From Treponema sp. (lineage in GTDB: Bacteria > Spirochaetota > Spirochaetia > Treponematales > Breznakiellaceae): a DNA stretch of 64,000 nucleotides. The notes under the pieces were generated by a model. That model saw only the letters and a list, made by a program, of their open reading frames with translations. It was not told the origin of the DNA and did no database searches. Location: positions 47,724 to 111,723 of the forward strand of contig WQXU01000007.1 in NCBI GenBank assembly GCA_009781635.1, read 5' to 3'. Made by a program: the position numbers and the translations under genes. Shown here one piece after another: positions 23,871 to 43,806 of this stretch (the first letter of the stretch is position 1; every line of letters begins with the position of its first letter).

Positions 23871-24212
23871 CTAATTTAGACTTAAAACCAGTCTTATCCC
23901 CAGTTCCACTTCTTCCATTATTTCCTTTTTTATTTTTATTATTTTTTTACTAAATCTGCTTCGATCTATTGCATATAATTGAGCTACTATTATTACAGAA
24001 TCATTCTTTAATTTAGAATCCTTTTTTCCAATATATACATTGCCAGGAGCGTCTAAAAGACGTAAATTTGTTGTTAATGGCAGTACAACAATAGTCTTTA
24101 TTTTACTTTCATTAAAACCATCGTCTTGTACAATTAATACCGGACGATTATTAGCAGGTTCACTGCCGTATGGAGGATCAAATTCGGCCCACCATATTTC
24201 ACCACGTATCAT
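23871..24212 (-). CDS. mazF: MazF-family mRNA interferase toxin
   Basis: A 113-residue toxin: MIRGEIWWAEFDPPYGSEPA, then RPVLIVQDDGFN, IVVLPLTTNLRL and VIIVAQLYAIDRSR are the standard MazF/PemK blocks, including the Gly-Ser-Glu and NRPVLI motifs of the RNA-binding face. It overlaps the antitoxin start region by 14 bp. It lies directly beside an attC-like site, and toxin-antitoxin pairs are frequent integron cassettes that stabilise arrays. It appears intact. Confidence 0.9.
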   Translation of the reverse strand: MIRGEIWWAEFDPPYGSEPANNRPVLIVQDDGFNESKIKTIVVLPLTTNLRLLDAPGNVYIGKKDSKLKNDSVIIVAQLYAIDRSRFSKKIIKIKKEIMEEVELGIRLVLSLN

Positions 24213-24450
24213 TTTTTGTTAATTCTCTAATGGATTCAAGTCCGGCATTTGAAATAGGTTCAAATTCTTTATAATAATCGTCATTATCATATACCTCGTT
24301 TAATTTTTGAGTTATATATTTTCGATTATTTTTTTTGATGTATTCTACAATAGCATTTAAATATAATGCGCTTCTGGAAATACCCATAAAGTGAGCAGTT
24401 TCTTCTGCTTCCATATATACCCTATCAGGTATTGAAATTGCTGTTTTCAT
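24199..24450 (-). CDS. MazE-like ribbon-helix-helix antitoxin
   Basis: An 83-residue protein. The N-terminal MKTAISIPDRVYMEAEETAH followed by MGISRSALYLNAIVEYIKK is a ribbon-helix-helix DNA-binding fold. The acidic tail YDNDDYYKEFEPISNAG should bind the toxin. The coding region overlaps the toxin gene, and the pair reads away from the kinase gene's orientation. Confidence 0.85.
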   Translation of the reverse strand: MKTAISIPDRVYMEAEETAHFMGISRSALYLNAIVEYIKKNNRKYITQKLNEVYDNDDYYKEFEPISNAGLESIRELTKNDTW

Positions 24451-24545
24451 ATATAAAGTATAACTAAAGTATAAATTTCTGTCAAGCTTTCGAGCGATTA
24501 CTTTTTATTAATTTTTTGATATTATTAAAAAAGGGAACTGCATAT

Positions 24546-25310
24546 ATGATACCTGGAAAATGTAAATTGTGCCAAAATGATAATGTTCTCCTGATGGAAT
24601 CACATATTATACCGGAATTTGCATATAAACCAGTATATGATAAGCATCATCGTTTTATTGATTTTTCAGAAGATCCAAGGACAGGGGTAAAATTTGCACA
24701 AAAAGGCATCAGGGAAAATTTATTATGCGGCAGCTGTGAAGTACTTTTAAGCAAACATGAAAAAATATTAAGTGATTTCACTTTGAACTTAAATCAAAAT
24801 AAAAATAACATCATCCATTTGTCTGATGAATTTCTTTTAAATACAAATATTAATTATGATTCGGTGAAACTGGCAGTACTATCAATAATTTTCAGATTGT
24901 CGGTTTCAAAGCTTCCGCAATACACTGGTTACGAATTAGGACCATTTGAACAGGAAATCAGAGATATTATATTACACGGCAGGCATATTGACAGGTATAA
25001 GTTTAGTATGCACATAAGTCCTGTAACACGTAATGGTATATATTATCCGGATTTAATAATGACTTACGAGAAACCATCGAAATATAAAAACATATACACA
25101 TTTTTATGTTTTATTATGTATGGACTTTTATTTGATGTAATGATTTCAAAAATTGATAAATGCGATTGCTGGCATTATTTTTCCTTAAGAGAAAAGGGTA
25201 AAATTATTATGCAAAATATTGAAATTAATAATGTAAATATTAAAGCTGATTTAATTAAACGTTTTAAAGATGAAGACATGATAAAACTTATTAGAAGGCT
25301 AAAAAAATGA
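24546..25310 (+). CDS. HNH-like zinc-binding protein of unknown function
   Basis: About 254 residues. I use the ATG at 24546 (track start 24516) because AAAAGGGA precedes it and MIPGKCKLCQNDN is a sensible start. A CKLC...CGSC pair with SHIIPEF between (residues about 5-65) forms a Zn-ribbon with an HNH-like H(I)IP motif, seen in some HNH nucleases and phage or defence proteins. The rest is helical with one hydrophobic segment and unrecognised. It is the only plus-strand gene of its inferred cassette. An AT-rich terminator overlaps its stop codon. Confidence 0.55.
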   Translation: MIPGKCKLCQNDNVLLMESHIIPEFAYKPVYDKHHRFIDFSEDPRTGVKFAQKGIRENLLCGSCEVLLSKHEKILSDFTLNLNQNKNNIIHLSDEFLLNTNINYDSVKLAVLSIIFRLSVSKLPQYTGYELGPFEQEIRDIILHGRHIDRYKFSMHISPVTRNGIYYPDLIMTYEKPSKYKNIYTFLCFIMYGLLFDVMISKIDKCDCWHYFSLREKGKIIMQNIEINNVNIKADLIKRFKDEDMIKLIRRLKK

Positions 25311-25348
25311 TTTAAAAAATTATTAATATTTTTTAAATCATTTTTTTT
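25307..25348 (+). terminator. AT-rich intrinsic terminator of the HNH-like gene
   Basis: ATGATTTAAAAAAT (25307-25320) and its exact complement (25328-25341) form a 14-bp stem with a 7-nt loop, followed by seven T residues and preceded by A residues. The stem includes the stop codon. The A/T flanks would allow function in both directions. Confidence 0.75.
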
Positions 25349-25369
25349 GAGTTATGTTAGCGATATTTC

Positions 25370-25434
25370 TCCTAACGTTTAAGGTAACTGCCCAAGCCGC
25401 CGTCAGGCGGCGCAGCTGTTACCGCGCGTTATGT
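25370..25434 (+). other. attC-like site 2
   Basis: A 65-nt GC-rich imperfect palindrome in AT-rich DNA. It runs from TCCTAACG (one mismatch to RYYYAAC) to CGCGTTATGT. GGTAAC (25383-25388) pairs with GTTACC (25418-25423), and GCCGCC with GGCGGC around a GTCA loop. TAACG...CGTTA ends, bulged stems and short length are the hallmarks of integron attC sites. It is placed between the HNH-like gene and the DUF262 gene. Confidence 0.6.
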
Positions 25435-25463
25435 GAAGTTATGGCGCCTTTTTGCAATATTTT

Positions 25464-26627
25464 TTATTTATTACCTTTTGCTCTATTATGTGTTTTGCAT
25501 AACATTTGGCAATTTTTTACAATTGTTGCACCGCCTTTACTCCATGCGGTTACATGATCAGCATCCATTTCTGTCAGTTTCCATATTTTAGATTTATTTG
25601 AATCATGTCCTATAGCACAAAGCGGACAGTTTGAAATGCCTTTTTTCCCTGCGGCTTCTGTTTGTTTTGCATAAACACTATTTTTTGTTGCTTCATCAAA
25701 AATACGAATGTCAAGTAATTTCGTATCAGTCGAGCCGCCAAGTAAAAATTCAAATATTCCCCTGCGATTTTTAACATAAGGATCAGCATATAATTTTCTT
25801 AATTTTTTTGAAATCGCGTTAGGATCATAAGCGTTTTTATGATATTCTTCATAAAGTCTTCCCCATTCAAGCCCTTTCATTTCATTTTCAACATCTTTAA
25901 AAACAGCAGAAATCCAATCAATTACACTATTAAAATATGCTTTTATCTGGTTAATATTTTTATCATTTCTGTGCCTACCCATATAATCACCAACATTATC
26001 TTTACTAACCCAATTTAATGCACATTCCAAAAACTCTTGCCGATTAACACTGCCAGAAATATACATGCTCCATTTTTGTATATTGGAATTACGGCTATTG
26101 CTAAATTCCTCTTTACATAATGTTACAAAAGTTCCAGAATATACAGCATTAAGAAGTTCCTGGTTATTTAGCGGAACACCTGCAATATTTATTGTTTTAA
26201 ACCATTCTTTAATTTCTGTTTCTGTTCCTTCGCATTCATAAATTAATAATGGTGTTTCCATTATGATTTTTTGTTTATCGGAAGCAATACCGCTAAAATA
26301 TTGTTCCATTCCATTTTCGTCTTTAATTGCAAATTTTCCAGAAACATAACGTCCAATGCTTGTAATACGCTGCTGACCATCTAAAACTTCGAATTTATTG
26401 TCTGTTACTTTAACGAAATAAATAAGACCAATAGGATACTTTTTTAGGATTGAATTTATTACTGCAACATCTTTTTTACCATCTGCATAAATATAGTTTC
26501 TTTGATATTCAGGCTGTATAGTCAATCTGCCAGATAAGCCAAATAAACCTTTACCTTCAAGTTCGTTGTAAACAAACCCTTCGCATATATCTTTGATTGT
26601 AATATTTGTTTTAAGTGTTGTTTTCAC
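25464..26627 (-). CDS. DUF262-HNH nuclease, candidate restriction partner
   Basis: A 387-residue protein. The DUF262/ParB-like N-terminal domain has IQPEYQRNYIYADGKKD and FEVLDGQQRITSIGRYVSG, where the DGQQR motif is characteristic. The C-terminal HNH domain has CPLC, MDADHVTAWSKGGA and NCQMLCKTHNRAKG, with DH, N and H catalytic residues. DUF262 proteins include the GmrSD restriction enzymes and other phage-defence nucleases, where DUF262 senses or hydrolyses nucleotides. It overlaps the upstream methylase by 4 bp, so the two are probably one modification-dependent or classical restriction unit. Confidence 0.82.
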   Translation of the reverse strand: MKTTLKTNITIKDICEGFVYNELEGKGLFGLSGRLTIQPEYQRNYIYADGKKDVAVINSILKKYPIGLIYFVKVTDNKFEVLDGQQRITSIGRYVSGKFAIKDENGMEQYFSGIASDKQKIIMETPLLIYECEGTETEIKEWFKTINIAGVPLNNQELLNAVYSGTFVTLCKEEFSNSRNSNIQKWSMYISGSVNRQEFLECALNWVSKDNVGDYMGRHRNDKNINQIKAYFNSVIDWISAVFKDVENEMKGLEWGRLYEEYHKNAYDPNAISKKLRKLYADPYVKNRRGIFEFLLGGSTDTKLLDIRIFDEATKNSVYAKQTEAAGKKGISNCPLCAIGHDSNKSKIWKLTEMDADHVTAWSKGGATIVKNCQMLCKTHNRAKGNK

Positions 26628-27754
26628 TTTGGCTTTCCTTTTCTTTTAATAAAAATTCGAGCATAAATATTTTTTCCATTTATTAATGGTCTTGCATCTT
26701 TGCTTCCTAAAAAAGGTAAACCTACAATTTCTGCATTATATCCGGCAGATGAAGACATTCCCAAAATTTCAAACTGTTCTGGGCAGTATTTATCAAGTAA
26801 AGAAACTGGCACTCCCATGACACCATCATAATCGCTTGGAATAGCATCAACATAAGGCACTTCAATTGCATTATAATTATCATATTTTTGATATTCTTTT
26901 CCTCTTAGTTCTTTATGTTTACTATATCTTATATTATCTGCCATAGTCATTAATGACAGAGGTTCATGACGGCGGCCATGATCTACATTTGTAAACCAAC
27001 GAACACCGACAACTTTCTGGTAATAAATATTTTCACCCTTTTCATTTTTGCGTATTTCACCAGTAAATTTTTCTTTGTCAACTATATTTGCTGGTATTAT
27101 AAATTCTCGATCACCGCTAGTAATACTTGGGCCTAACCATACTTTAATACTTCTTATTAGCGGGAAGACTTCTTTATAAGTTATTGCGTTTATATTGCCA
27201 ATGATTATGAATTTTTTGCTTGCTTCCACAATCCACGCTAGAAACTCTCGAAAAAGCGAAAATGGAGGATTAGTAATAATAAAATCAGTTTCTTCACGGA
27301 GAGCTTTCACTTCGTCACTACGAAAATCGCCGTTGCCTTTTAAGCGAATTAAATGTTGTTTATCAGATAAAATCTCTTTGACATTCGGCAAATTAACAGT
27401 TGCAATTCCATTAAAATCAGGCGGATCAGTCAAAACTAACTTATGTGCTTTTCGTGTTGTTTTATTTTCTGACGTTTCATCATTAAACAGTGAAAGTTCT
27501 TTGTTAGAAATCTGCGATCCATCATAACATGTTGCAATGAGCTTTTTTAGCCCAAAATCTTTGAAACGAAGTGCAAAATATTTGAAAAAGTTACTTTCAT
27601 ATGGGTCATCGCAAGGGAGTAATATTGTTTTCCCGCGAAATACATCAGGATTATACTCCAAATAGGCATTCATTTCTTTTTCAATGTCATGAAATTGGGT
27701 ATAAAATTCATCATTTTTGACAATTTTTGCCTCTTTTTGAAATTTACTTGCCAT
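26624..27754 (-). CDS. EcoRI-type adenine-specific DNA methyltransferase
   Basis: A 376-residue protein of the EcoRI methylase family. AKIVKNDEFYTQFHDIEKEM is the family start, LLPCDDPYESNFFKYFALRF is the S-adenosylmethionine-binding region, TDFIITNPPFSLFREFL contains the catalytic NPPF, and VVGVRWFTNVDH follows. It should methylate adenine N6 in a short target. The gene is first in a two-gene operon with the DUF262-HNH protein. The pair lies between two attC-like sites and has very low GC, suggesting horizontal acquisition. Confidence 0.88.
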   Translation of the reverse strand: MASKFQKEAKIVKNDEFYTQFHDIEKEMNAYLEYNPDVFRGKTILLPCDDPYESNFFKYFALRFKDFGLKKLIATCYDGSQISNKELSLFNDETSENKTTRKAHKLVLTDPPDFNGIATVNLPNVKEILSDKQHLIRLKGNGDFRSDEVKALREETDFIITNPPFSLFREFLAWIVEASKKFIIIGNINAITYKEVFPLIRSIKVWLGPSITSGDREFIIPANIVDKEKFTGEIRKNEKGENIYYQKVVGVRWFTNVDHGRRHEPLSLMTMADNIRYSKHKELRGKEYQKYDNYNAIEVPYVDAIPSDYDGVMGVPVSLLDKYCPEQFEILGMSSSAGYNAEIVGLPFLGSKDARPLINGKNIYARIFIKRKGKPK

Positions 27755-27888
27755 TTATTAACCCTATATTCCTATGATTTATGTTATATTATCATAATAA
27801 ATCATTATTTTCAATTGGCAAATTTTGACATTTTTCTGTAAATTTTGATGTTTTTTGTTTAATTTTAACTTTTCTGCGCCATAATTTC

Positions 27889-28078
27889 GCCTAACGTTCT
27901 GGTTGTATATGACGGTTTGGCAACCCGAATAAGCGAAACCGTAGGTTTTGCAGGGTTGCCAAACTTTGGCGTAGACAAAACCGCACAAAGGGCTTCGCCC
28001 GACTGCTGTTTTTCATAGCCCGAGCCGCCCTCTGGCGGCGAAGCATATAAAAATTCTCTTAGGCGACGTTTTCATGCT
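27889..28078 (+). other. Composite attC-like structured region
   Basis: It begins GCCTAACG (exact RYYYAAC core) and ends TTAGGCGACG. Inside are a perfect 12-bp stem (GTTTGGCAACCC at 27915 with its complement at 27953), GGGC-TTC-GCCC, and GCCGCC-CTCT-GGCGGC. It looks like two attC-type sites joined, with the last 3' core degenerate (CTTAGGC for GTTAGGC). The downstream cassette ends 2.3 kb later with the inverse core GTCGCCTAAC. Confidence 0.45.
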
Positions 28079-28114
28079 TTATAAAATAATAATACTATAT
28101 TTGATTTCATTATT

Positions 28115-28327
28115 TTATCTATTTTTAAAATCTATAAATTTAAACAAGAAATCTAAATCCTCATTTTTCGTTATGTATTCCATTTCAAAATTCAGCGATG
28201 ACGATCCAGCTTGACATAATAACTTACTTTTTTCTCTATCTGGAATATTTAACTTATCAAAATTGTCTAAATCTTTTCTTGTAAATTGAAATACAACATT
28301 AAAGAAGCTATCCCATATATAGATCAA
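28115..28327 (-). CDS. Small protein related to the upstream gene's N-terminal half
   Basis: A 70-residue protein, function unknown. FQFTRKDLDNFDKLNIPDRE, then DLDFLFKFIDF aligns by eye with FFLTENHLRNLNKLDITESI and LLKTIEF of the adjacent 129-residue protein, so the two are paralogous units or a split gene. It starts 5 bp after the neighbour's stop codon on the same strand. The coding status is uncertain because it is short. Confidence 0.5.
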   Translation of the reverse strand: MIYIWDSFFNVVFQFTRKDLDNFDKLNIPDREKSKLLCQAGSSSLNFEMEYITKNEDLDFLFKFIDFKNR

Positions 28328-28332
28328 GAAAA

Positions 28333-28722
28333 TTATTCTTTTTTTTTCTTTACATTACATATCCAGTACTGCTTGTCTTTGGGATAAACCCAATCTATTT
28401 TCAACCCCATTTCATTTATCAATATTTCCGACAAGTTGATAAAAACGGGATAACTATCTTTAAGGATTTTAATTAATACTTCATTTGTGGGGAATATTGA
28501 TAAATCTGTTAATAATGGTTTTAATTCATATTTTTCTATGAATTCAATAGTTTTTAACAAATCTGTTAACTCTTTTCTCACCTTTATATCTAATATGATT
28601 GGGACAGGTGTATCTATTGTTTTAAATTGTTTTTTAATACTTTCTGTAATATCAAGCTTATTCAAATTTCTCAAATGATTCTCTGTAAGAAAAAATCTTA
28701 CCAAAAAATAAGTATTATACAC
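28333..28722 (-). CDS. Unrecognised small protein sharing a C-terminal motif with the pentapeptide protein
   Basis: A 129-residue protein with no known family. The C-terminal half LKPLLTDLSIFPTNEVLIK followed by LSEILINEMGLKIDW strongly parallels the last 45 residues of the upstream pentapeptide-repeat protein (NPLLTDPTIPPSDELLG, then LSTKLINEMGFILK). The N-terminal half is paralogous to the downstream 70-residue protein. The three co-directional genes thus form a module of shuffled parts. Confidence 0.55.
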   Translation of the reverse strand: MYNTYFLVRFFLTENHLRNLNKLDITESIKKQFKTIDTPVPIILDIKVRKELTDLLKTIEFIEKYELKPLLTDLSIFPTNEVLIKILKDSYPVFINLSEILINEMGLKIDWVYPKDKQYWICNVKKKKE

Positions 28723-28800
28723 CGAAATGTAAAAAACATTTTTCTTGTTTTTTTTTGCTTTATATAGCCATAAATTTATGTCGGCAAAATTACAAAATTC

Positions 28801-30309
28801 TCATTTTAATATAAACCCCATTTCATTAATTAACTTTGTAGATAGTTCATTAAAAATAGTATAACTATCGCCAAGTGAAATACCCAATAATTCATCTGAA
28901 GGTGGTATTGTAGGATCTGTTAATAAAGGATTCCCGGAAAACATTCTATTCAATTGAGGTGTGAATTCCACTTCAGATATTTCTGCGTTTTTATTTTCGT
29001 TGTATGGCATATTAAAATACTTTAAAGAGTCTACCATATTTTTCATAAGAATATCTGAATCACTTAATATTTTATTATACTTTTCTAAATTAGGAGGTAA
29101 TGTCGTATTTTTTGGAGAAATACCAGATATTTCGCAATCTATAATTTTTGTATAATCTGTTACCTTAAAGGCTTTTCCTTTTTCAAAATTAAACGATTCA
29201 TAAGACCATGTAAGCGTACATTGATTAAACTTAGTTTTGATCATCTTGCATTTAGAAAATGTTCCATCTATAAAACTACATTCAGAAAAATTAGTTTCAG
29301 AGAAATTACATTCATCTAATGTACTATACATAAAATTACATTCAGACAGTATAGCTCCTAGAAAGCTGCATTTTCGTAAATTACTATTAGCAAAATAACA
29401 ATTTTTTATATCACCGTTAACAAAAACACATTTTGATAAGTTTCCGTCAATAAAACTACATTCAGATAAATCTGCTTCAATCATATAACTCTCGTCTAAA
29501 GTACTTTTCCCAAAATTACAATTTTTAAAAGTACTTTGAATAAAACTACATTTATGAAAAAACCCATGCTGAAAATCGCACTTCTCCAAAACACAATGAT
29601 CAAAAAATACATTTTCAATATTAATTCCGTTAAAATCGCAATTAATTAATGTGCTGGATGATAGATTGGATTTATAACCCCGATAAACACTATCATTTCC
29701 ATTATATGGTCTAAATAAATAATTAATCAGAGTTTGGATAATTACGGGACACCTATCAGGAGTTTTATTTAAATCAATGTTTTCATAGAATTTTAATGAA
29801 TTCTCTCGCAAATAACTACAAAAAAGATTATGAACCACTTGTGTATAATTCTCATTCTCGAAAGCAATTTGATGTAAAGCGTGTATTCCACCTAATACAA
29901 CAGTACGACTTTTCTTACCTAAGTTACCTACTGCATTATTGAAACGAGTATCAACATTCCCCTTATACATTATTTCAATTTGCTTGTCGGTTCTTTTTGT
30001 TTGTTCTTCCATTACTTTTACACGCTTATAGCTAGTATTCCAAACAAGAAAACCAACTATACCTGCAATAAATGCAAGGAAGACTTTTATCAATTCACCC
30101 CGTGATTCATTATCTTGGATAAAAAAATATTCAGCAATATTTTCAAAGAAATAAACAAATAAAGATAGTAATAGTACTATAATTGTTATATAAATTATTA
30201 TTCCTACAATTCTTTTTTTAGAGAATAATTGATTATTATTCCCTTGTTTTTGATTGAAATATATTTGGTTATTATTTTCTGTTATTTTATTTTTGGCTTT
30301 TTGAGTCAT
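28801..30309 (-). CDS. Membrane-anchored pentapeptide-repeat protein
   Basis: A 502-residue protein. Two TM helices (about residues 33-60 and 70-92, GIIIYITIIVLLLSLFVYFF and FLAFIAGIVGFLVW), a short helical region (VMEEQTKRTDKQIEIMYKG) and a conserved LGGIHALHQIAFENENY block precede roughly 25 pentapeptide units rich in C.F (about 215-370, for example FKNCNFGKSTLDESYM). A C-terminal domain ends LINEMGFILK. Membrane pentapeptide proteins with this N-terminal layout occur in many accessory regions; some defence systems use such repeats as scaffolds. Function is unknown. Confidence 0.75.
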   Translation of the reverse strand: MTQKAKNKITENNNQIYFNQKQGNNNQLFSKKRIVGIIIYITIIVLLLSLFVYFFENIAEYFFIQDNESRGELIKVFLAFIAGIVGFLVWNTSYKRVKVMEEQTKRTDKQIEIMYKGNVDTRFNNAVGNLGKKSRTVVLGGIHALHQIAFENENYTQVVHNLFCSYLRENSLKFYENIDLNKTPDRCPVIIQTLINYLFRPYNGNDSVYRGYKSNLSSSTLINCDFNGINIENVFFDHCVLEKCDFQHGFFHKCSFIQSTFKNCNFGKSTLDESYMIEADLSECSFIDGNLSKCVFVNGDIKNCYFANSNLRKCSFLGAILSECNFMYSTLDECNFSETNFSECSFIDGTFSKCKMIKTKFNQCTLTWSYESFNFEKGKAFKVTDYTKIIDCEISGISPKNTTLPPNLEKYNKILSDSDILMKNMVDSLKYFNMPYNENKNAEISEVEFTPQLNRMFSGNPLLTDPTIPPSDELLGISLGDSYTIFNELSTKLINEMGFILK

Positions 30310-30397
30310 ATTTTCTTATTATATAACACATTTCTTATAAATTGTCAAGCAATAACATTGTTTATTTTTATATACCTTTAATTTATTTGAAAATGTC

Positions 30398-30420
30398 GCC
30401 TAACGAGGTTATGATAAAAG
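30398..30420 (+). other. attC-like 5' core next to the IS110-family element
   Basis: GTCGCCTAACGAG matches the 5' core of the sites at 27889 and 25370, and the text then changes into the presumed IS end with no matching 3' half after the element. Some IS110/IS1111 elements insert in attC sites, which would explain a broken site here. This is weak on its own. Confidence 0.35.
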
Positions 30421-30655
30421 AAATGCGAAAGCTGGTATACTAAAGTAAAGTTTGAAAAGAACGATACTGGTTGTAACTTAAACTGGGGCAGGATTACTGA
30501 CCTCGTGCTAACGAATAACAACCAGCACCGCATTGCCTTTTGGGGAATAGTATTAATCTCATTATTACCCCGTATAGACGTTTGGTAGTATACTGGTTTG
30601 CAGAGCAAACCCAATTCCTTTTCAAATTATAATTAATTTTTTTATGAAGGAACTT
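30421..30655 (+). ncRNA. Structured non-coding end of IS110 element, candidate bridge RNA
   Basis: About 235 nt without a convincing gene lies directly 5' of the IS110-type transposase. It holds a perfect stem CTGGTTGT/ACAACCAG (30467-30474 with 30518-30525), a hairpin GGTTTGC-AGA-GCAAACC (30595-30611) and two GTATACT motifs near the ends. IS110-group elements encode a bridge RNA in this position that guides recombination. Exact boundaries are not determined. Confidence 0.45.
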
Positions 30656-31765
30656 ATGAAGTTTGTAGGTATTGACCTTCACACTAACCGTTTTACTTGT
30701 TGTTATCTTTCTGATAACTCTAAGGAAAAATAAACAGAAACTTTTGATCTTGATGCGGAAGGACTAAGAAGTTTTTATTCTACAATTAACAAGGATACCT
30801 ATATCCTTGTTGAAGCTACCATTAACACATTTTCTTTTATTACTTTGTTTAAAGATTTAGTCAAAGAAGTAATCATTGCAAATACATATCAGCTTAAATC
30901 CGTAGGTGTTCCTGGGAAGAAAACAGACAAGATAGACGCTTACAAACTAGCGGAAAAACTGAAAGCTGAAGTAATTTCTGGCGTTCAACAGATAGTTCTG
31001 GTTACCATTCCTCCAAAGGAAATCAGGGATTTAAGAGCTCTTTTTGTTACTTATCGTACTTTAAGAAAAGAAATAGGACAAACAAAGATTCGTACTCATT
31101 CTTTTTTAAAAGAAAATCTCATTCCATTCACCAAAGAAAACATATTTGGGAAAAAAGCCAGAATTGAAATAAGAAAAATATCCATTGATTATTTGTTGTC
31201 ATTTCAAATTAACCTTTTAATGGACAGTTTAGAGCATTCGGAAGATGCATTTGATAAACTTGTTAATGGAATTAATAAAGCCGGTGCTTCATTTATGTCT
31301 GAGATTGAAATATTGACCAGCATGACAGGTATATCTGTTATAACCGCAATAGCGGTTAGAGCTGATGTTAGCGATGTATCAAGGTTTAGAAATTCAAAAC
31401 ATTTTGCCTACTATTTGCGAAGCGCTCCAAGAGTTGAAAGTTCAAATGATAAAACGATTATAAAAAGCACCAATAAAGCCGGAAGGAAACTTTCAATAAC
31501 ACTCATTTCCCAGTCGCTTAATCATTTTCGTGATGATAATGAAAAGCTGTGCCGGTTTTAAGAAAGGGCAAAGGTTTATAAGAAAAAAGGAATAATACGG
31601 ATGGCTTTGTGCCGCAGGGTAATAACAGAAATATATCAGATGCTAAAGAAGCGAGAATATCATTATTTCTGTAATCCTGTATTGCATAATAAGAAAATGT
31701 CAGAGTATAGAAATTTATTGGAGAAAGAAAATATTATTTTACAAGAATTTTCAAAAGCAGCTTGA
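30656..31765 (+). pseudogene. IS110-family transposase with two in-frame stops
   Basis: One frame from ATG at 30656 (AAGGA 5 bp upstream) runs to TGA at 31763 with TAA codons at 30731 and 31559. It begins MKFVGIDLHTNRFTCCYLSD, with the RuvC-like DEDD catalytic residues in VGIDLH, LVEAT and KTDKIDAYKLAE. The C-terminal Tnp20 half has ILTSMTGISVITAIAVRADV and APRVESSNDKT. The second stop falls where the family normally has a Tyr before ERAK, fitting TAT or TAC to TAA. Repaired length would be about 369 residues. The element is probably dead unless supplied in trans. Confidence 0.85.
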
Positions 31766-31781
31766 CTTTTTTCATAGATGT

Positions 31782-32322
31782 TTATTTATCGACAAATATT
31801 TTTTCCAGTGCGATCTTCAATTCTGGAAAAATATCAACGGTAACTTTATCTGTGCCATTATATGTTTTTACGGATATAAAACCATTTTCAAAAATAAGCC
31901 ATAAGAAATATTTTGTCCGTATCTATAACCCAGTATTCTCTAACGCCTGCTTTTCGATAAAGCTCTAATTTAATTTACATTTCAATTACAAGATCAGGAG
32001 CTCTCCGGCAGCCTTCCGGGCCGAGTTTTTGCCTATCGCAGATAACAGATATATCCGGTTGAACCACATTATCGTCGCTTTCATCCGCCTTGTAAAAAAG
32101 CCGGACATTAAATGGGGCCGGAAATACTCTGCATGATTTTCCCTGCAGAAAAACGTTAAAGTAACTTGATAGCTCCATTAAAATAGCTTGATATTTTGTA
32201 CTTGGAGCAGACATAGCATACGCTTCACCGTTAATGAGCTCAAATCGTTCACCTTCTGCAAGTTCCCATTCTTTATATTCAGCATAAGTATAGTAACACT
32301 CTTCTCTTGGAAAAGCACCCAT
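31782..32322 (-). pseudogene. Uma2-family nuclease, frameshifted and interrupted
   Basis: The intact 115-residue part (31975-32322) has the Uma2 start YTYAEYKEWELAEGERFELI, SAPSTKYQAILMELSSYF and QPDISVICD, ending PDLVIEM at a stop. Beyond it, the minus strand continues with LYRKAGVREYWVID and then, in another frame, VKTYNGTDKVTVDIFPELKI to the stop at 31782. The gene has thus lost a short piece after PDLVIE and has a frameshift. Uma2 proteins have a PD-(D/E)xK fold and often multiply in genomes; their role is unclear. Confidence 0.75.
31787..31878. repeat. Direct repeat, copy 1a (pairs with 39655-39746)
   Basis: 92 nt covering the end of the Uma2 relic are repeated in the same orientation at 39655-39746 with only a few mismatches. 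A second matching block, 32253-32420, corresponds to 39748-39925. The second locus lacks the 374 bp between the blocks. Confidence 0.85.
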
Positions 32323-32813
32323 TAATTCAATTATAAACCATTTTTCTATCTTCGTCTATTTGTAATTTTACTCTTAAATGTGATTACGCATAACAAGGCA
32401 GCTTCCCTTCTATAAAAGAAATATTATTATAAGAACTCTTAAAATTTGTTATTTCCTTTACAACTGGCATCTTTCCTCCAGATTATTTTCTTTAATCTTA
32501 AATTTTCATTTTATCTTTGTTAATTGAATTATATTAATTTTTGCCCTATGACAAATACTGTAATTTCTTTATAACTATTTTTAAATCAGTACTTTTTCGT
32601 ATTGCGAGCATAATATACCTCCATAATTGTTAACAATATATCATTATAACATATTATCAATGAGGTAAACAAAAAACAATTAATTTGATAATTTTACTAC
32701 AATTAAAGATGCTGTTTTAATGGTACGAAGTTTTTAGCAATATAATAAAAACCTTAACTGATACTCCCCCTTTGTACTAATTTATCATCTTCGTAAATTT
32801 GAAATTATAATCT
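32323..32813. other. Gene-free AT-rich gap
   Basis: About 490 bp between the Uma2 relic and the large HD protein gene. The first 98 bp belong to the repeat shared with 39.8-39.9 kb. I see no convincing gene or structured RNA in the remainder, only A/T-rich tracts. Confidence 0.5.
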
Positions 32814-35800
32814 CTAATACATTTTAATGTAAATAGGCTCACAATATTTATAACCATTCTCTTTAATATCATTTATTACTTTTATATACTCGTCATATAT
32901 TTTTTTACTACGTAGACTAAATTTAGAGTCATTAAGTAGTATTACAAATTTTTCTAGTATTAATGTAATTTTTTCATTATGTGAAAATAGCTTATCATCA
33001 TTCTGTTTTATTTCAATTATCCACGTTCTATAACAATTGATGTACGTTATCATTCGATGCAAGGCTCGTTCTAAATGATACATTGATGTATTTTTGTTTT
33101 GTGGAGCATGGTAAACAAATGGAGATTCTAAAATATCTTTGCCTTGTTCGCCTAACCTCTTAAACATATCTACTTCAATTCCTCCTAATGTAGAAAGTCC
33201 TTTTTTTATATTTTCATAAAAATCATTCAACAAAATTTCATATCTATATTTCTCATGGAGCCTGTTATAAGACATATTTTTACTGTAAAATAGCGGTTTT
33301 ATAGAATTGGTTTTATGTGGTGTATCGACAAATCTCATTGCTAAAAACTCAAAATGGGAACATATTATTCTTACATATGCTCGTCCTGCGCATGTAATTG
33401 CAATTTTGCCCACAGAACCGCTGTTTTTATTTATATTTTTTTTTAATATATCTTTTATTGCTTCTTTTGTTATACCTGGCTTAATGTGAATCGAATCAAA
33501 TGTAACAAGATGAGACCATGAATCGGATGTTTTCAGCGAATACATTCCATATATTGCATCAGACAGTAATTCTATTGTTTTCTCTTCAGTTAAACCTAAT
33601 GCTTTTTCAAACTCATGTACTAGATTTGATAAATGCACTATACCATCAGTATTGTTAGTGAGACGTTTGTAATGTTTCGGCATATGAAAAAATAAATAGA
33701 ATAAAATCAATCGCGATAATGAATACTCTTCAGGTACTCTGTTTCCAAACTTAATTCCAATTTGCTCAAAGTATCCGTCTTGTTTACCGGTAAATCTGTT
33801 ATTCCTGAAATGTTCAAAAATTAACCTATACACAATTCCTCTTGCTCCATATCTTAAGAAACCCGAATGCTTTAATTCAAATTTTGCTTCGTATTTTTGC
33901 ATTTCACTATATTCAGTTAATAGTTGATCGTTTTCGTTGCATATCTCGCATAAACATCGTACAAAACGAATATAATCATTATTAAATAAACCAGCAAGAG
34001 TTGCACTCGAATATGAATCCTCCAGTATCGACTTAATAAGCAATATATGATTCTTTATTTTTGGTTTAACATTTTTAATCTTTTCCATGATGTAGTTGCT
34101 CTTAACTTCCAGCACTTTTGCTTTATCTACATCTATCGATATATCCTCATTTTCAGAGAAATCATCAAATCTTCCGATATAATGTTCACCTATTATACTT
34201 GCTGTTGTGTCCCTCATCATAAAGATACAGCAATATCCTTCATGAAAGTTAAAATTACTATCTTTAAATATATCAACCTTGCTCGAAATAAAATTAAGAA
34301 TCTGTGACATTTCTTTAACAAATTCAATATATTCTTTGTTAAGGAAATTATTTGTAACCATTGGATCATCAATTGCATCAAGGTTATCAAATATGTAAAC
34401 TATCTTCTGTTTTGCTTTTTGTTCATATGTTATTTTGACCATGTCTAGCAACATAATTGCAATCATCAAATCCTTTATTGTAGTATCTTTCAAATATTTA
34501 TTGAATTCATTTTTGCAAAAACTATATGGTTTATTTGCTTGACTTACGCAGAATTTTAAGAATTTTCTTGCGCTTGGAAACTTATTTATTCTGGGTGTAA
34601 TTTTATTATATATATCATTAAGCAAATTAAGAACATAATGACTTATTATACTATTATTTATAACTTTATTTTCAAAAACATAACCCAAGATAAATCTTAA
34701 TTTATTTTCAATTGGATATGGTTCATATGTATTAACATCAGTTTCAAAGTTAAAATAGAAACACCGACCTTTCAATGCTGACTCTATTTTATTGATATGA
34801 CTATTAATCCACTTTATTTTTTCTTTTGTTTTTAATCTTGATTTATTAGATTCACTAAAGTATCTTTCAAATTCTTTAACAACGTCATCTAGATGTTCCT
34901 TGAAATATTTATCATCGACTTTAAAATCAGCATCAATTAATGGTATTTTTCTGTGATCCTCAAAAATATCATAAATATACTTTGCAAGTGTTGTTTTCCC
35001 GCTTCCACGATATCCAGTAAAAAATATTGTATTTTTTGTTATGCTATCTAGAACTTTAGCAATTAAACATAATCTTTTATATGTTAATAATCCCATAACA
35101 TGAAATTCATTAAAAAATAGATCATATGTTATCCTACCGCTTAAATTCCTGTTTGTTATCGGGTCAGGAAAAGGATCACAAGTTAGAAATATATGGAGTT
35201 CTGTTTTCGAAAATATTTCCGCCCATTCAGAATCATTCAATTCGGATAAAATGATTTTACCTTCGTCATGTGAAGGCGGGCTCATCCTCTTATCGTTGTC
35301 AGTAAATATTGCTTTAATAATATTTTCTGGTATATTACTCTGTTCATCAAGTTTAGTAACACAATCAGCAGGGTCCTCAAAATTATAGTTTAATCCAGAA
35401 GCACGAATTATGTGTAAAACATCTTCGTTTTTCCTATACAGATTAAATAAATATTCTATAAAATTATCTTTATAATTATTAAAATCATAACTACTTAAAA
35501 TAATATTAAAGCGAATCTTATGTTCAAAATATATAATACGAGTTTGTTTATGCAAATACCAAAACAAACTACTGTCATCTGGAATATCAAAAAATTCTGT
35601 TGTCCTAGAATTGATTCTTTTCTCATCTATATCAAGCTCATCACCTAATCTCAATAATGAAGCTAAAAATCTTAGTTTAATACCTAAATAATCAACCGGA
35701 CATTCTTTTATATTCATCTTAGAATGATATTGACAAACTTTACGAACATTAGAAATTATTTCTGGTTTAATATCACGTAAAATAGAATGTAGCGTATCAG

Positions 35801-36269
35801 GTGTCTTATTTTTATATGCTTCAAATAACCATGCTGACGTCACTATATGATGGTGTTTTCGCAGTTCAATCATATTTTCCCGAGTAAAATCATCATTGAA
35901 TACACTTTCAAATTTTATATTAAAATCGTCTTCCGCTCTTTGTTTAACATTTGGAAACTTCCGAAAATCACATTGCATGCCGATATCATGCAAAAAAATA
36001 GATAATAATAGTATAAATATATCAATATCGCTAAGTATATCTGTGGTTTTTTCTTTAAATTCTGGTAAATCTTGTAATCTGGAAAGTATTCTAATTGAAT
36101 GATCATATCCATGTTCTGTATAATGATGAACTAGGCGAACCTCAGCCCATAAATCCTTTACATAACTTGCACAAGATTTTAACACTTGTTTGTGTTCTTC
36201 TGCTAGCCGTTTAAATAGATAACTATTTTCAAGTTCTGGATGATTAATTCTTTTTTGTTCTATTTGCAT
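32814..36269 (-). CDS. HD-domain plus P-loop NTPase protein, candidate defence effector
   Basis: A 1151-residue protein. The N-terminal HD-superfamily domain (about 40-240) has HYTEHGYDHSIRIL, FILLLSIFLHDIGM, KHHHIVTSAWLF and LRFLASLLRLGDELDIDE, with the H, HD and D metal ligands in order, resembling HD domains associated with bacterial conflict systems. A P-loop domain starts about 415 (FFTGYRGSGKTTLAKYIYD), with Walker B KIVYIFDNLDAID near 623, like STAND or AAA-type NTPases. The C-terminal 400 residues are helical and could be the sensor. The gene is single, very AT-rich, and lies between IS remnants and nucleases. No exact family was recognised. Confidence 0.7.
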   Translation of the reverse strand: MQIEQKRINHPELENSYLFKRLAEEHKQVLKSCASYVKDLWAEVRLVHHYTEHGYDHSIRILSRLQDLPEFKEKTTDILSDIDIFILLLSIFLHDIGMQCDFRKFPNVKQRAEDDFNIKFESVFNDDFTRENMIELRKHHHIVTSAWLFEAYKNKTPDTLHSILRDIKPEIISNVRKVCQYHSKMNIKECPVDYLGIKLRFLASLLRLGDELDIDEKRINSRTTEFFDIPDDSSLFWYLHKQTRIIYFEHKIRFNIILSSYDFNNYKDNFIEYLFNLYRKNEDVLHIIRASGLNYNFEDPADCVTKLDEQSNIPENIIKAIFTDNDKRMSPPSHDEGKIILSELNDSEWAEIFSKTELHIFLTCDPFPDPITNRNLSGRITYDLFFNEFHVMGLLTYKRLCLIAKVLDSITKNTIFFTGYRGSGKTTLAKYIYDIFEDHRKIPLIDADFKVDDKYFKEHLDDVVKEFERYFSESNKSRLKTKEKIKWINSHINKIESALKGRCFYFNFETDVNTYEPYPIENKLRFILGYVFENKVINNSIISHYVLNLLNDIYNKITPRINKFPSARKFLKFCVSQANKPYSFCKNEFNKYLKDTTIKDLMIAIMLLDMVKITYEQKAKQKIVYIFDNLDAIDDPMVTNNFLNKEYIEFVKEMSQILNFISSKVDIFKDSNFNFHEGYCCIFMMRDTTASIIGEHYIGRFDDFSENEDISIDVDKAKVLEVKSNYIMEKIKNVKPKIKNHILLIKSILEDSYSSATLAGLFNNDYIRFVRCLCEICNENDQLLTEYSEMQKYEAKFELKHSGFLRYGARGIVYRLIFEHFRNNRFTGKQDGYFEQIGIKFGNRVPEEYSLSRLILFYLFFHMPKHYKRLTNNTDGIVHLSNLVHEFEKALGLTEEKTIELLSDAIYGMYSLKTSDSWSHLVTFDSIHIKPGITKEAIKDILKKNINKNSGSVGKIAITCAGRAYVRIICSHFEFLAMRFVDTPHKTNSIKPLFYSKNMSYNRLHEKYRYEILLNDFYENIKKGLSTLGGIEVDMFKRLGEQGKDILESPFVYHAPQNKNTSMYHLERALHRMITYINCYRTWIIEIKQNDDKLFSHNEKITLILEKFVILLNDSKFSLRSKKIYDEYIKVINDIKENGYKYCEPIYIKMY

Positions 36270-36885
36270 GACATTATGACTCCAAATTAAACATTAATTC
36301 ATTATATTATATTGAACTTGAAAATGTCAATCATACATATTAATACTATCCATATAATAGTATTATCTTACGTTTGCAACCAGTTTTTAAGTCAGATTTT
36401 ATTTTGAAGTATAATGTTGTTCTTATATATGTTGTAACCGATTAGTTGTTCTAGAAAACTTACTTTTATGCTAACTTCTACTATCCTTAAGTTTATATAT
36501 CATTTAAACACAAAGAAATTACACATTTTAATCAAAACCTTTATCACAAAGAATATAAATGCAACAATGAAATGCATCGAACAAAAAGAAATCGGGGATG
36601 AAATTATAAACTTCCACATCTAATGGCTTCAAAAGGGATCATTGCAATTCACTTAAATACGGCTCAAATGATGTTAAAGGACTACGATAAAGACATTAGA
36701 TATATCATCTCAAGAAACTGTCGGTTGGAGATAATACCAACTAGAAAGTTGACTACAGAAACATCAGCGAACATTCAATGTTTATTCACTACTAAACAAG
36801 AAGTAACCGTAAAATAAACCATATCTACCGCTAAGAAAATAAATTCAATAAACTTCCAAAAAATACATTTATTTGGAGGAAAAGA
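36270..36885. other. AT-rich gap upstream of the IS66 remnant
   Basis: About 615 bp. The only open frame, 36623-36817 on the plus strand, shows no recognisable motif or ribosome binding site. The sequence may include the left flank of the IS66 element and the promoter of the HD/P-loop gene. Confidence 0.4.
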
Positions 36886-37181
36886 ATGCGTTACAGCAAA
36901 GAAGAAAGAACGATGTTACTGGAAGATTGGAAAGAGAGTGGAAAAAGCGCTTGGAAGTACGCAAAGAAAAACAAAGTAAGCTGGAAGACATTCAAGAGCT
37001 GGACAAAAAATAAACAGAGACAAAACCGTGTTTTGTAGAAGTACCGTCTCAGATTATGAAATCGCCAATGCGAATGCCGGAAATATTAATTGAAAAATGA
37101 GATGAAAAAATTCACATCCCTCTTTCAATCAGCAGCATCGAATTACACGCTGTCATTGAGGGGTTGGGAGCAGCGTTATGA
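36886..37181 (+). pseudogene. IS66-family tnpA remnant with frameshift and stop
   Basis: From ATG at 36886 (GGAGG upstream) the frame reads MRYSKEERTMLLEDWKESGK to KNKQRQN and stops. In another frame the protein resumes FVEVPSQIMKSPMRM, hits a TGA, then KIHIPLSISSIELHAVIEGL up to the TGA that overlaps the tnpB ATG (ATGA). This is the C-terminal region of IS66 accessory protein TnpA. It is absent from the ORF track because it is broken. Confidence 0.75.
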
Positions 37182-37525
37182 TAGTTGATCTTGGCAAAGC
37201 CAGAATATTCCTTCGTCTAAGAACAACGGACTTGAGAAAAGCTGTTAACGGGTTATCGGCAATAGTGCAAAACGATATAAAACAATATCCGTTCAGCGAC
37301 AGTGCCTTTTTATTCTGTAACAGGGAACGCAAGCTCTTAAAATCCGTATATTGGGATAAGACATGTTTTTGGTTAAGCCAGAAGAGGCTTGAAAAGAACA
37401 GGTTTCCCTGGCTTGCTGATAAAAATGAAGCAAGAGAGTTGACAGCAGACGAGCTGCGAATGCTATTTGCAGGAATAGATTTTTTCAAAGTGCACAAAGA
37501 AGTGTTCTGCAAAAAAGTAATATAA
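37178..37525 (+). CDS. IS66-family accessory protein TnpB
   Basis: A 115-residue IS66 Orf2: ARIFLRLRTTDLRKAVNGLS, then FLFCNRERKLLKSVYWDKT and a later FPWLADKNEARELTADELR. It is complete in length and overlaps tnpA by ATGA. The protein is required for IS66 transposition, but tnpA and tnpC on either side are broken, so this copy has no functional context. Confidence 0.85.
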   Translation: MIVDLGKARIFLRLRTTDLRKAVNGLSAIVQNDIKQYPFSDSAFLFCNRERKLLKSVYWDKTCFWLSQKRLEKNRFPWLADKNEARELTADELRMLFAGIDFFKVHKEVFCKKVI

Positions 37526-37615
37526 GAAAGAAGTCTGGTTTGATGTGATTGTATCAAATCAGACATACAAGAAAAAATATTTTATTAAAAAAAGATTGAC
37601 AGTTACGATCGTTAT

Positions 37616-38237
37616 GTGATAAAACAAGATATGCAAACCAGCGCAGTACAACTTGAAAAACTTGGTAAAGCCGCACTTATAAATTATAGTAAAGAATTAG
37701 AAATAAACTTTAACAAACAATATACAGAATTAAAAAACGATAAACAGCAGCCGTTATTTTACGAAGAACCTGAACAAGTAAACAAATCTGAAGAGAAATC
37801 AGAAAAACTGGAAGTCAAATCCCATACAAGAAAAAAGTACAGACGTAAACTTCTTGATCCTAATCTTCGCAGAGTAGAAAAAATTGTAGATATTCCTGAA
37901 GATGAAAAAACCACATTCAGCCGAAGAAGATGTAAAACACATTCGAAAATTGTACGAACTTGAAGATAAACTGCGAAAAGAGAATCTTGATGAAAATGAT
38001 TTTCTTTACAAGCGTAAAAAACAGGCGGAGCCTATACTTTCAGATTTTTGAATATGGCTTAAAAAACGAGCGAATGAAGTTCTTCCAAGTTGCAAGTTAG
38101 GTGAGGCAGTAGCATACACGTTGAAACAGTGGGATAAGTCAGTTGCGTATCTTGAAAAGTCCATATTTAACCCCAGACAACAACGCATGTTAGAACGCGA
38201 TAATTCCTCCTTCCTCTGTGTCATGGAGAATGTATAA
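37616..38237 (+). pseudogene. IS66-family transposase tnpC, internally deleted
   Basis: The GTG-started frame gives the leucine-zipper/linker part of TnpC (LEKLGKAALINYSKELEINF, SHTRKKYRRKLLDPNL, VEKIVDIPEDEK). It then jumps frame to VKHIRKLYELEDKLRKEN, KKQAEPILSDF, stop, LGEAVAYTLKQWDKSVAYLE and RMLERDNSSFLC. The DDE catalytic core between the zinc-finger region and this C-terminal third is missing, so transposition from this copy is impossible. Confidence 0.8.
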
Positions 38238-38268
38238 CCTGCTTCTGATTAGGCCTTTATTTGTATTA

Positions 38269-38412
38269 TCAAAATCTATGAGTTACAGAACCACCAATGT
38301 CTCTGATTTCACCGCCGTTTATTCTATAGACAACTTTATCATTAATATCCCTGATTTCATTGCCATTAATCCTGTGGGTAACATTACTTTAGACATCTCG
38401 AATATCTGCCAT
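38269..38412 (-). pseudogene. Relic of a short beta-repeat protein
   Basis: The minus-strand frame from ATG at 38412 reads MADIRDV, stop, then THRINGNEIRDINDKVVYRI, NGGEIRDIGGSVTHRF and a double stop. The repeated (Y/H)RING-EIRDI unit of about 16 residues resembles small beta-flower-type proteins. One nonsense codon near the start breaks it. It is too short for the ORF track. Confidence 0.45.
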
Positions 38413-38468
38413 AATTTACATTTCTTTTATTAAATTTTTTATATATCATTTTTCATTAATTTTTAATA

Positions 38469-38726
38469 TTATTCCACTTCTAATCCTAGGGTAATATTTG
38501 CCCATATATCAGTTACTTCTCCTGTTACAAAATTAATTTTTTTTCCTTTTCTTTTTGCATATCCCTCAATTTTTATTATCGAAGAATACTTATCACTAAA
38601 AGGTTCTGGCGAACAAACAAAAATATCTACATTTGTTTGATCAATTAATTTTTTTGTCTGTTCAACATTATTTTTATACATTTAGTTAGGGTCTACAATT
38701 ATTGCTATACGAACAAAACACATCAT
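38469..38726 (-). pseudogene. Unrecognised gene coupled to the Mrr-like gene, with early stop
   Basis: The ATG at 38726 overlaps the TGA of the Mrr-like gene (TGATG), so translation would be coupled. The frame reads MMCFVRIAIIVDPN, TAA at codon 15, then MYKNNVEQTKKLIDQTNVDI to 38469. Reinitiation at the ATG at 38681, immediately after the stop, could still give the 70-residue ORF listed in the track. No family was recognised; KIEGYAKRKGKKINFVTG suggests a small basic beta domain. Confidence 0.45.
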
Positions 38727-39535
38727 CAGATAAATGGATAGTCTGAACATCCATATTCTTTTTTGATATAAAATTTATTTACAAAATTATTCCAAGGTTC
38801 ATATGGATTTTGAGGTGTTATTTTAAGCATGTTTATTAAATCATCAAATGCTAATAATTTCATGTTATAATTTATTTGATTTTTTTCAGTTTGAGCTATT
38901 TCTGCTATTGCATCTTTTGTGTAACCTTTTGCAGTTGTTACAAATATTCCTTTTGGTATACCTTCTCTATATAAAACTCCATTAAGTTCTCTTACAAATT
39001 TAACAGTTTCATTTTTACTGATATTTTTTCTTCGTTTTACTTGAACCAGATAAGTATCATTATTTGATAAAATTAATTTTAAATCTATACCTTTATCTCT
39101 ACTTTGCCCTATATGTATAACTTCACATGGGGCATAATAATCTTTAAAACAATCACATATTAATTCTTCAAATTTTTGTGTATTCATTTCACCTATATCA
39201 CTAGGATATTTTAATAAATATTTTCTAATTAAATTAAGAGGAACATCTTTAGAATCCACATCATATTTCTTAAGCATTCCCGTAAGTAGAGAAGTACTAG
39301 CTTCTCTCTCACTAAAACCAGGAAATCTCCCATCAGTGTCCCATGCTATCCACCAACCACAATATTTGCATATCATTATTTCTACTGGATATCCAGTAGT
39401 ATAACTATATAATTCTATTCCACAATATTTACATTTAAATGAATGACGAACATACCTTATAGAGCCATCATAAGTGATGAGTACAACAGTTCCTTGCTCT
39501 GCCTCTTCATATCCTAAAATTGGTTTATCTCTCAT
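38726..39535 (-). CDS. Mrr-like restriction endonuclease with zinc ribbon
   Basis: A 269-residue protein. The N-terminal zinc ribbon has CKYCGIEL and CKYCGWW (residues about 33-62). From about 118 a PD-(D/E)xK Mrr_cat-type domain follows: NTQKFEELICDCFKDYY, GQSRDKGIDLKLI and YLVQVKRRKN supply the E, D and Q-K catalytic set, then GIFVTTAKGYTKDA. Mrr proteins cut modified or foreign DNA. The gene is coupled to a damaged small gene downstream and lies in the same island as the HD/P-loop protein. It appears intact. Confidence 0.82.
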   Translation of the reverse strand: MRDKPILGYEEAEQGTVVLITYDGSIRYVRHSFKCKYCGIELYSYTTGYPVEIMICKYCGWWIAWDTDGRFPGFSEREASTSLLTGMLKKYDVDSKDVPLNLIRKYLLKYPSDIGEMNTQKFEELICDCFKDYYAPCEVIHIGQSRDKGIDLKLILSNNDTYLVQVKRRKNISKNETVKFVRELNGVLYREGIPKGIFVTTAKGYTKDAIAEIAQTEKNQINYNMKLLAFDDLINMLKITPQNPYEPWNNFVNKFYIKKEYGCSDYPFI

Positions 39536-39654
39536 TTTTTTACACTATTCATTTTATCATGGTTTGAAAAAGTGTCAATGCTTTTATTCAGCTCCTATTC
39601 ATATATTTTAAATATTTCCTGAAATATCTTGACAAATGGCACATAACTCTTATA

Positions 39655-39818
39655 TATCGACAAATATTTTTTCCAGTGCGATCTTCAATTCTGGAAAAAT
39701 ATCAACGGTAACTGTGTCTGTGCCATTATATGTTTTTGCGGATATAACTTCTGCAAGTTCCCATTCTTTATATTCAGCATAAGTATAGTAACACTCTTCC
39801 CTTGGAAAAGCACCTATT
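39655..39818 (-). pseudogene. Second, deleted Uma2 relic (direct repeat copy 2)
   Basis: The sequence repeats the first and last parts of the Uma2 relic at 31782-32322 with about 374 bp of the middle missing and the start codon changed from ATG to ATA. Homology continues upstream to about 39925. With the copy at 31.8 kb it forms long direct repeats around an 8-kb island. Confidence 0.8.
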
Positions 39819-40041
39819 AATTACTCCCTATTAACAATTATAAACCATTTTTCTATCTTCGTCTATTTTTAATATACTCTTAAATGTGATTACACATAAC
39901 AAGGCAGCTTCCCTTCTATAAAAGAATGTGATTAAAATAATGCTAAGTATTTTTTTAAATGTAAGGAGCTGTTTGAAACACCTTTAACTATCATCATGTT
40001 TTTTTGGGAAACTGTTTTATTAAAAATCTCTAATTAATAAC

Positions 40042-42828: not shown

Positions 42829-43083
42829 CTAAATCGAAATCAAATCTGGTTCATCTATTATTGGCGGCGCTTTATACAATTCGTATACATAACCTGCGCT
42901 TTCTCTGTAAAGAAGAGTGTCATAATTTAAAAGCCTTTTATACCAAATTGAATTATAGAATTTTTCAAATGCATCTAATAATTCTATGTTTTCATTTTTT
43001 GAAATAAAATGAGCAACAGCCCCTGTAATATATTCTATCATAAATTGCCTTTGCTTTTCTGTTTTTACTTCATCTGACTTCAT
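42829..43083 (-). CDS. Small protein of the DUF3990 operon
   Basis: An 84-residue protein. RQFMIEYITGAVAHFISKNE is helical, and FYNSIWYKRLLNYDTLLYRE followed by SAGYVYELYK resembles a motif common in small partner proteins of toxin-like loci. It overlaps the DUF3990 gene by 14 bp and is third in the operon. Possible antitoxin or accessory protein; the function is not established. Confidence 0.6.
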   Translation of the reverse strand: MKSDEVKTEKQRQFMIEYITGAVAHFISKNENIELLDAFEKFYNSIWYKRLLNYDTLLYRESAGYVYELYKAPPIIDEPDLISI

Positions 43084-43579: not shown

Positions 43580-43806
43580 GTCAATAAACCGCCGTTTTTT
43601 TTCAGTATATTATCCATATCCTCAATTATATATATTATGTTTTCCAGATGTTCGGTTTCATAATGTTTATCAAGAAAGTCCAGTACTCCAAATTTTTGTA
43701 ACTGGGGAAACACAGAATCCGGGGTTAAATTTTTGGATTTTGCATAACGGCTGATTACAAAAGAAAGCCAATAGGCCTTGCTTATATTATTTGCTTCCTG
43801 TTTCAT
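43576..43806 (-). CDS. DUF3791 family protein
   Basis: A 76-residue protein: AYWLSFVISRYAKSKNLTPD, VLDFLDKHYETEHLENIIYI is the DUF3791 pattern, regularly encoded next to DUF3990. The protein is all-alpha. It is first in the three-gene operon, and its ATG abuts the stop codon of the M48-like fragment with no gap. Likely neutralises the DUF3990 protein. Confidence 0.75.
   Translation of the reverse strand: MKQEANNISKAYWLSFVISRYAKSKNLTPDSVFPQLQKFGVLDFLDKHYETEHLENIIYIIEDMDNILKKNGGLLT

Follow-up and report, generated by a model that had tools for sequence, protein, structure and literature searches.

HD-CE, the N-terminal domain of the protein described here, is a known, catalogued effector-type domain in NLR-like settings, since it is fused, in sequences from elsewhere, to NACHT, NB-ARC, TIR and Hsp90-like ATPase domains. 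An HD-superfamily hydrolase also serves as a phage-defence effector in Clover, in the form of the CloA dNTPase (PMC12265719), and RdrA, the ATPase of RADAR, is a heptameric AAA+ protein whose α-helical C-terminus has been proposed as a sensor (PMC9994260). In the literature library that we searched, the papers retrieved for HD-CE were all unrelated and none dealt with HD-CE activity; nor did we find a paper there on the NTPase family or on the HD-CE/NTPase combination that we compare here with these systems.

We analysed a stretch of 64,000 nucleotides from Treponema sp. (the window), in which one gene joins HD-CE to a P-loop NTPase and a helical C-terminus. This gene probably encodes a horizontally acquired, single-gene, NLR-built conflict protein, presumably an anti-phage one, with a sensor at the C-terminus, an NTPase switch and HD-CE as the output. 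None of the libraries searched contains the NTPase family or its combination with HD-CE; the types of part, an HD-CE effector and a P-loop switch, are already known.

The gene and its HD-CE domain

The gene, its promoter-like site and its first domain are located as follows.

32814..36269, minus strand: whole gene, 1151 residues, HD-CE with P-loop NTPase and helical C-terminus; open frame with ATG start and a full-length homologue (L022) of 46% identity
36301..36330, minus strand: promoter-like TTGACA-18-TATAAT; 12/12 consensus match, with the ATG 31 bp downstream
35520..36128, minus strand: HD-CE domain, residues 48–250; PF24391 match, ligand columns in 24 HD-CE proteins and HD fold in the model

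The initial annotation had placed an open reading frame of 1151 residues here, and the frame is indeed open for 1151 codons, though on the minus strand: it begins with the ATG at 36269, and its stop codon ends at 32814. Across 32814–36269, many stops close the plus strand. The strand and the promoter were absent from that annotation, as was the type II restriction–modification pair at 25464–27754 described below. The promoter scan as a whole came close to shuffle expectation, and the site is a putative promoter. Adjoining the gene, we saw no small partner gene or antitoxin-like ORF, only short chance ORFs, and we read it as a probable single-gene transcription unit. The motifs that had been quoted are all present in the protein: HGYDHS at residue 53, LHDIGM at 93, LGDELD at 208, GYRGSGKTT at 419 and IFDNLD at 626.

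The HD domain that had been annotated in the N-terminus was confirmed by profile and by structural model. The Pfam HD-CE match scores 94.5 bits (E 1.1e-26) against a curated cut-off of 27 bits and is thus far beyond chance. The six candidate metal ligands (H57, H94, D95, H140, H182 and D210) occupy columns that are identical across the 24 aligned HD-CE proteins, save one residue in one protein. Since 20 of these 24 were retrieved by peptide patterns of the seed protein, chiefly HDIGMQCD, only the four HD-CE/HATPase fusions, which were found with the Pfam profile, give independent evidence for the conservation of residues 94–101. In the AlphaFold2 model (20 sequences), residues 7–320 are confident, with pLDDT mostly 70–96. 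Structural comparison of this model gives an HD fold, with the HD-like domain of Ppx/GppA as the best match (Z 12.3, rmsd 4.4, 186 aligned) and cyclic-nucleotide phosphodiesterases next, at Z about 10.5. From these sequence and model data, HD-CE of the window protein is likely active as a phosphohydrolase or phosphodiesterase of the binuclear HD type. The earlier reading of this part as an effector is reasonable, because HD-CE is catalogued in NLR-like settings.

HD-CE was found at 28 genome loci. NACHT or NB-ARC is above the curated cut-off in 13 of the 15 HD-CE proteins scanned with Pfam (L022 excluded); many of the 13 also have TPR, pentapeptide or WD40 repeats, and one has TIR. In a search of 98 host relatives, strong HD-CE matches came only from the window gene and from four proteins (genomes G007, G020, G021 and G071) with an Hsp90-like HATPase, assigned by eye from sequence, that is either fused to HD-CE or comes directly after it. 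HD-CE is absent from all 14 control genomes.

The surroundings of these HATPase-linked genes hold other features. In G020 (L078:93-1703 and L078:2177-2992), a putative CBASS-type cyclase and a putative IrrE-type peptidase lie 4–8 kb from the gene for HD-CE and the Hsp90-like ATPase, and the neighbour set that includes this locus gave matches to the PADLOC models Cyclase and capP. In G007 (L077:1259-3999 and L077:4033-7014), the HD-CE/HATPase frame is split into two ORFs and is apparently broken; it adjoins a WD40-repeat protein that ends with a caspase-like domain.

The NTPase and its helical C-terminal module

The remainder of the protein is a module of about 820 residues with four conserved motifs.

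32817..35282, minus strand: NTPase and helical module, residues 330–1151, which also exists without HD-CE; diverged homologues L034/L036 (4.8e-33) and L035/L037 (4.8e-16), surviving Walker A masking; alignment A5
34989..35015, minus strand: Walker A GYRGSGKTT (419–427); G..G.GKTT invariant in four homologues
34377..34394, minus strand: Walker B-like IFDNLD (626–631); DN.D invariant in four homologues
34203..34214, minus strand: RDTT (686–689), a putative STAND/AAA-type sensor-1-like arginine after a hydrophobic strand; R and the final T invariant in four homologues
33345..33389, minus strand: AGRAY...HFEF motif (961–975) of the C-terminal module; AG..Y and HFEF invariant in four homologues

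Residues 330–1151 match none of the curated families of Pfam, NCBIfam, PADLOC or PHROGs. The initial annotation, which had recognized no named family for the full architecture, missed that the HD part belongs to the named family HD-CE. Many generic AAA models give weak matches to the P-loop, none of them above a curated cut-off, and the window protein is below every NACHT, NB-ARC, nSTAND and NPHP3_N curated cut-off. The homologue L036 passes the Pfam cut-off of NPHP3_N, a NACHT-type domain (29.5 versus 24.8), with NACHT itself below cut-off. When the profile was compared with the HD-CE-linked NACHT and NB-ARC domains, Walker A alone aligned, at 14% and 3% probability, respectively.

The genomes were searched for the module with a two-sequence profile of the window protein and L022, which recovered the two diverged homologues listed above. 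Their matches stay at 5.5e-34 and 1.8e-16 when Walker A is masked, and the C-terminal part alone matches them at 1.4e-26 and 2e-17; thus, the homology signal does not come from the P-loop. The best of 400 shuffled sequences against the module profile reached 0.18. One further candidate, L033, was rejected as a CobW-type protein sharing the P-loop only, and weaker profile matches (ten non-host genomes and nine others, E 1e-6 to 1e-4) are confined to the P-loop region, and we regarded them as chance. The family has four members here (the window protein, L022, L036 and L037), and its alignment is shallow.

Of the NTPase in the initial annotation, the motifs stand, being invariant in the four homologues, and the fold does not gain from modelling: the model of residues 372–800 (two sequences) has a pLDDT of 48.5, and its best VIA match is at Z 4.1 among mixed folds. 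BrxC, ORC and AAA+ proteins are only weak rows in this comparison, and RdrA is absent among the rows shown. Since the model is poor, the NTPase assignment rests on the sequence motifs and the homologues; on this evidence, the central module can be placed no more closely than among the STAND/AAA+-like P-loop NTPases, in an uncatalogued family. Many sensor domains are hypervariable, and the conservation of the C-terminal module sets it apart from these.

Partner genes and genomic setting

HD-CE is fused in cis to the module in the window protein and in L022, and the NTPases of L036 and L037 are without it. At L037, an upstream gene of 352 codons overlaps the NTPase start by 11 nt. Its protein contains nucleoside-phosphorylase-like strings, read by eye (GGEMEGGG and ICDWG), and weakly matches PADLOC PDC-M60C (3.6e-6), with no Pfam match to any phosphorylase family. 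At L036, 32 bp separate the NTPase from the end of an upstream gene for a membrane protein of 200 residues with a single, strongly hydrophobic helix; glycosidase-like genes follow the NTPase. Neither of these two surroundings is an obvious defence island. Because the same module has HD-CE in cis, or a phosphorylase-like or membrane protein in trans, the partner exchange around one NTPase suggests a modular sensor–switch–effector conflict system and is the strongest sign of one, in a sample of four proteins and three arrangements. Shortly upstream of the phosphorylase-like and NTPase pair of L037 (genome G958), L037:163-6048 encodes a YD-repeat protein of very large size that has a Hint-like segment and is probably a polymorphic toxin.

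The setting of the window gene is an AT-rich island with restriction genes and remnants of mobile elements.

24001..40000, strand not applicable: AT-rich island containing the gene, GC 0.27–0.33, with flanks mostly 0.35–0.45; composition profile
25464..27754, minus strand: type II restriction–modification pair, GmrSD_N (DUF262)-HNH nuclease and EcoRI-type methylase; PADLOC REase_II 1.4e-87 and MTase_II 2.9e-97, Pfam EcoRI_methylase 2.8e-121
30845-31561: IS110-type transposase fragment (Pfam)
31975-32322: truncated Uma2
37178-37525: IS66 Orf2
38726-39535: Mrr-type nuclease, Mrr_cat at 1.2e-16
39722-39817: second Uma2 relic, 32 residues

The IS66, IS110, Mrr-like and repeated Uma2 neighbours named in the initial annotation were borne out at the coordinates listed. 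The defence-type setting that it had described holds up, with restriction–modification and Mrr in the island; the window protein itself matches no family in PADLOC-DB 2.0.0 at E up to 1. Such an island, with its IS remnants, agrees with accessory defence cargo without proving it. In a neighbour comparison within the same genomes, 62 genes near HD-CE/NTPase loci matched 109 PADLOC families at 1e-10 and 79 control genes matched 41; these figures lean in the same direction, but what they count is families instead of genes, with 24 families hit by a single SNF2 helicase, so the comparison is not proof of enrichment.

Several other features of the window were recorded. The GmrSD_N (DUF262)-HNH nuclease is an unusual partner for an EcoRI-type adenine methylase. 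Next to this pair, at 24516-25310, a protein of 264 residues has no Pfam match and a weak PADLOC match to Drt6 (0.0018). A protein of 502 residues at 28801-30309 combines membrane helices with pentapeptide repeats, which are also seen near the C-terminus of several HD-CE/NACHT proteins. On the minus strand at 42829-43806, three short genes stand in tandem (84, 169 and 76 residues); the middle one resembles, by eye, a DUF3990-type ADP-ribosyltransferase-like protein, and the trio is a possible toxin–antitoxin group.

The distribution of the NTPase module is patchy. It occurs in one of 392 sampled genomes of the host phylum (the host itself) and in three of 297 genomes of the family to which the genome of L022 belongs. 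The sole full-length homologue, L022, is carried by a mobilisable element and has a Mob_Pre relaxase and a Toprim primase on one side, three tandem serine recombinases (Resolvase/Recombinase proteins) on the other and an Xre-type regulator just upstream. No match turned up in phage, plasmid or IMG/VR viral contigs, whether the query was the window protein, the alignment of the module or the pair of diverged homologues. The defence role proposed at the outset is in keeping with this setting, in that the homologues are not in housekeeping operons and the gene is absent from the other host relatives searched.

Mechanism, alternatives and known systems

From the HD fold and its ligands, the P-loop motifs, the C-terminal homology, the exchange of upstream genes and the mobility, all drawn from sequence or model, we propose the following as the most likely scheme. 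The helical C-terminal module would bind an infection cue, and ATP binding would let the central P-loop NTPase change state or oligomerize. This change would bring together or unlock the N-terminal HD-CE phosphohydrolase or phosphodiesterase, which, once activated, would hydrolyse a nucleotide or nucleic acid and halt growth of the infected cell, presumably with an abortive outcome.

Within the class of the NLR-like reading, the chief rival is an RdrA-like protein as in RADAR. Here the NTPase would form an AAA+ (ORC/Cdc6-like) ring whose helical lobe acts as sensor and which serves as scaffold or feeder for a nucleotide-modifying enzyme; this enzyme would be the fused HD-CE in the window protein and a protein in trans in the homologues. 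Among the weak PDB matches of the A5 profile are two sequences of a 947-residue 'Archaeal ATPase' (8hr7 and 8fnt, E 0.006–0.008), which we take to be RdrA, and the separate upstream genes of L036 and L037 recall the two-gene logic of RADAR. However, the match stops at the P-loop, and L036 is above the cut-off of a NACHT-type domain, and we regard an RdrA-like ring as unlikely.

The mobility of the gene also bears on who would benefit from it. As cargo of a mobilisable element downstream of an Xre-type regulator in one case, and among IS remnants in the other, the protein might stabilize or exclude elements (plasmid or ICE exclusion, or addiction) and so serve the element rather than anti-phage immunity of the host. 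Mobile elements commonly carry defence genes, however, and such surroundings cannot discriminate between these two roles; the window gene has only the short chance ORFs beside it where an antitoxin-like partner would be looked for; we think this role distinctly improbable. The nearest HD folds suggest a further reading, in which the protein has a housekeeping function outside conflict and regulates nucleotide second messengers or stress, because Ppx/GppA domain III and the cyclic-nucleotide phosphodiesterases act in alarmone, polyphosphate and cNMP metabolism. The absence of the gene from the other relatives searched, the lack of a conserved operon and the full-length homologue on a mobile element argue against such a regulator, to which we give very little credence.

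We return to the NLR-built conflict protein as the preferred reading. Several results count against it: the lack of a PADLOC match and of homologues in the phage, plasmid and viral contigs, the surroundings of L036 and L037, the poor NTPase model, the small size of the family and the conservation of the C-terminal module. A wider proposal, which we make more tentatively, is that the module may be an undescribed infection-sensing ATPase family that exchanges its effectors (HD-CE in cis; a phosphorylase-like or membrane protein in trans), the HD-CE form being a one-gene immune system. If this is true, the module, as a separate sensor family, would add a class of defence switch missed by PADLOC and Pfam, and its homologues could be used for finding further effectors. 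HD-CE recurs in several ATPase architectures (NACHT, NB-ARC, Hsp90-like and the window type), and the window protein, a single-gene member of 1151 residues whose active-site residues are intact, offers a practical subject for tests of this domain.

Compared with the HD-CE-NACHT and HD-CE-NB-ARC proteins, the window protein has the same N-terminal HD-CE with the same six candidate ligands, a large middle NTPase and a C-terminal extension. However, its NTPase is outside those NACHT and NB-ARC families, aligning at Walker A alone, and it lacks their TPR, WD40 or pentapeptide repeats. The HD-CE proteins with an Hsp90-like HATPase, from the same genus and order, likewise couple HD-CE to an ATP-using module, although this is a GHKL-type ATPase, as read from sequence, instead of a P-loop NTPase, and the C-terminus is another one. 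Avs and bNACHT share the single-chain plan of N-terminal effector, central P-loop NTPase and putative C-terminal sensor; the window family differs by its NTPase family and its conserved helical C-terminus. With RADAR (the RdrA ATPase and the RdrB deaminase), the window protein has in common a P-loop ATPase, a helical C-terminus and an effector enzyme that would be directed at nucleotides, whereas the sequence similarity is confined to the P-loop, and an HD domain takes the place of the deaminase, fused rather than separate. Lastly, Clover CloA and other defence dNTPases also use an HD-superfamily hydrolase as effector; CloA has no NTPase switch in its chain, its HE catalytic dyad is not recognized in the window protein and, in contrast to the defence dNTPases, the best structural rows of the window HD domain are Ppx/GppA and phosphodiesterase folds.
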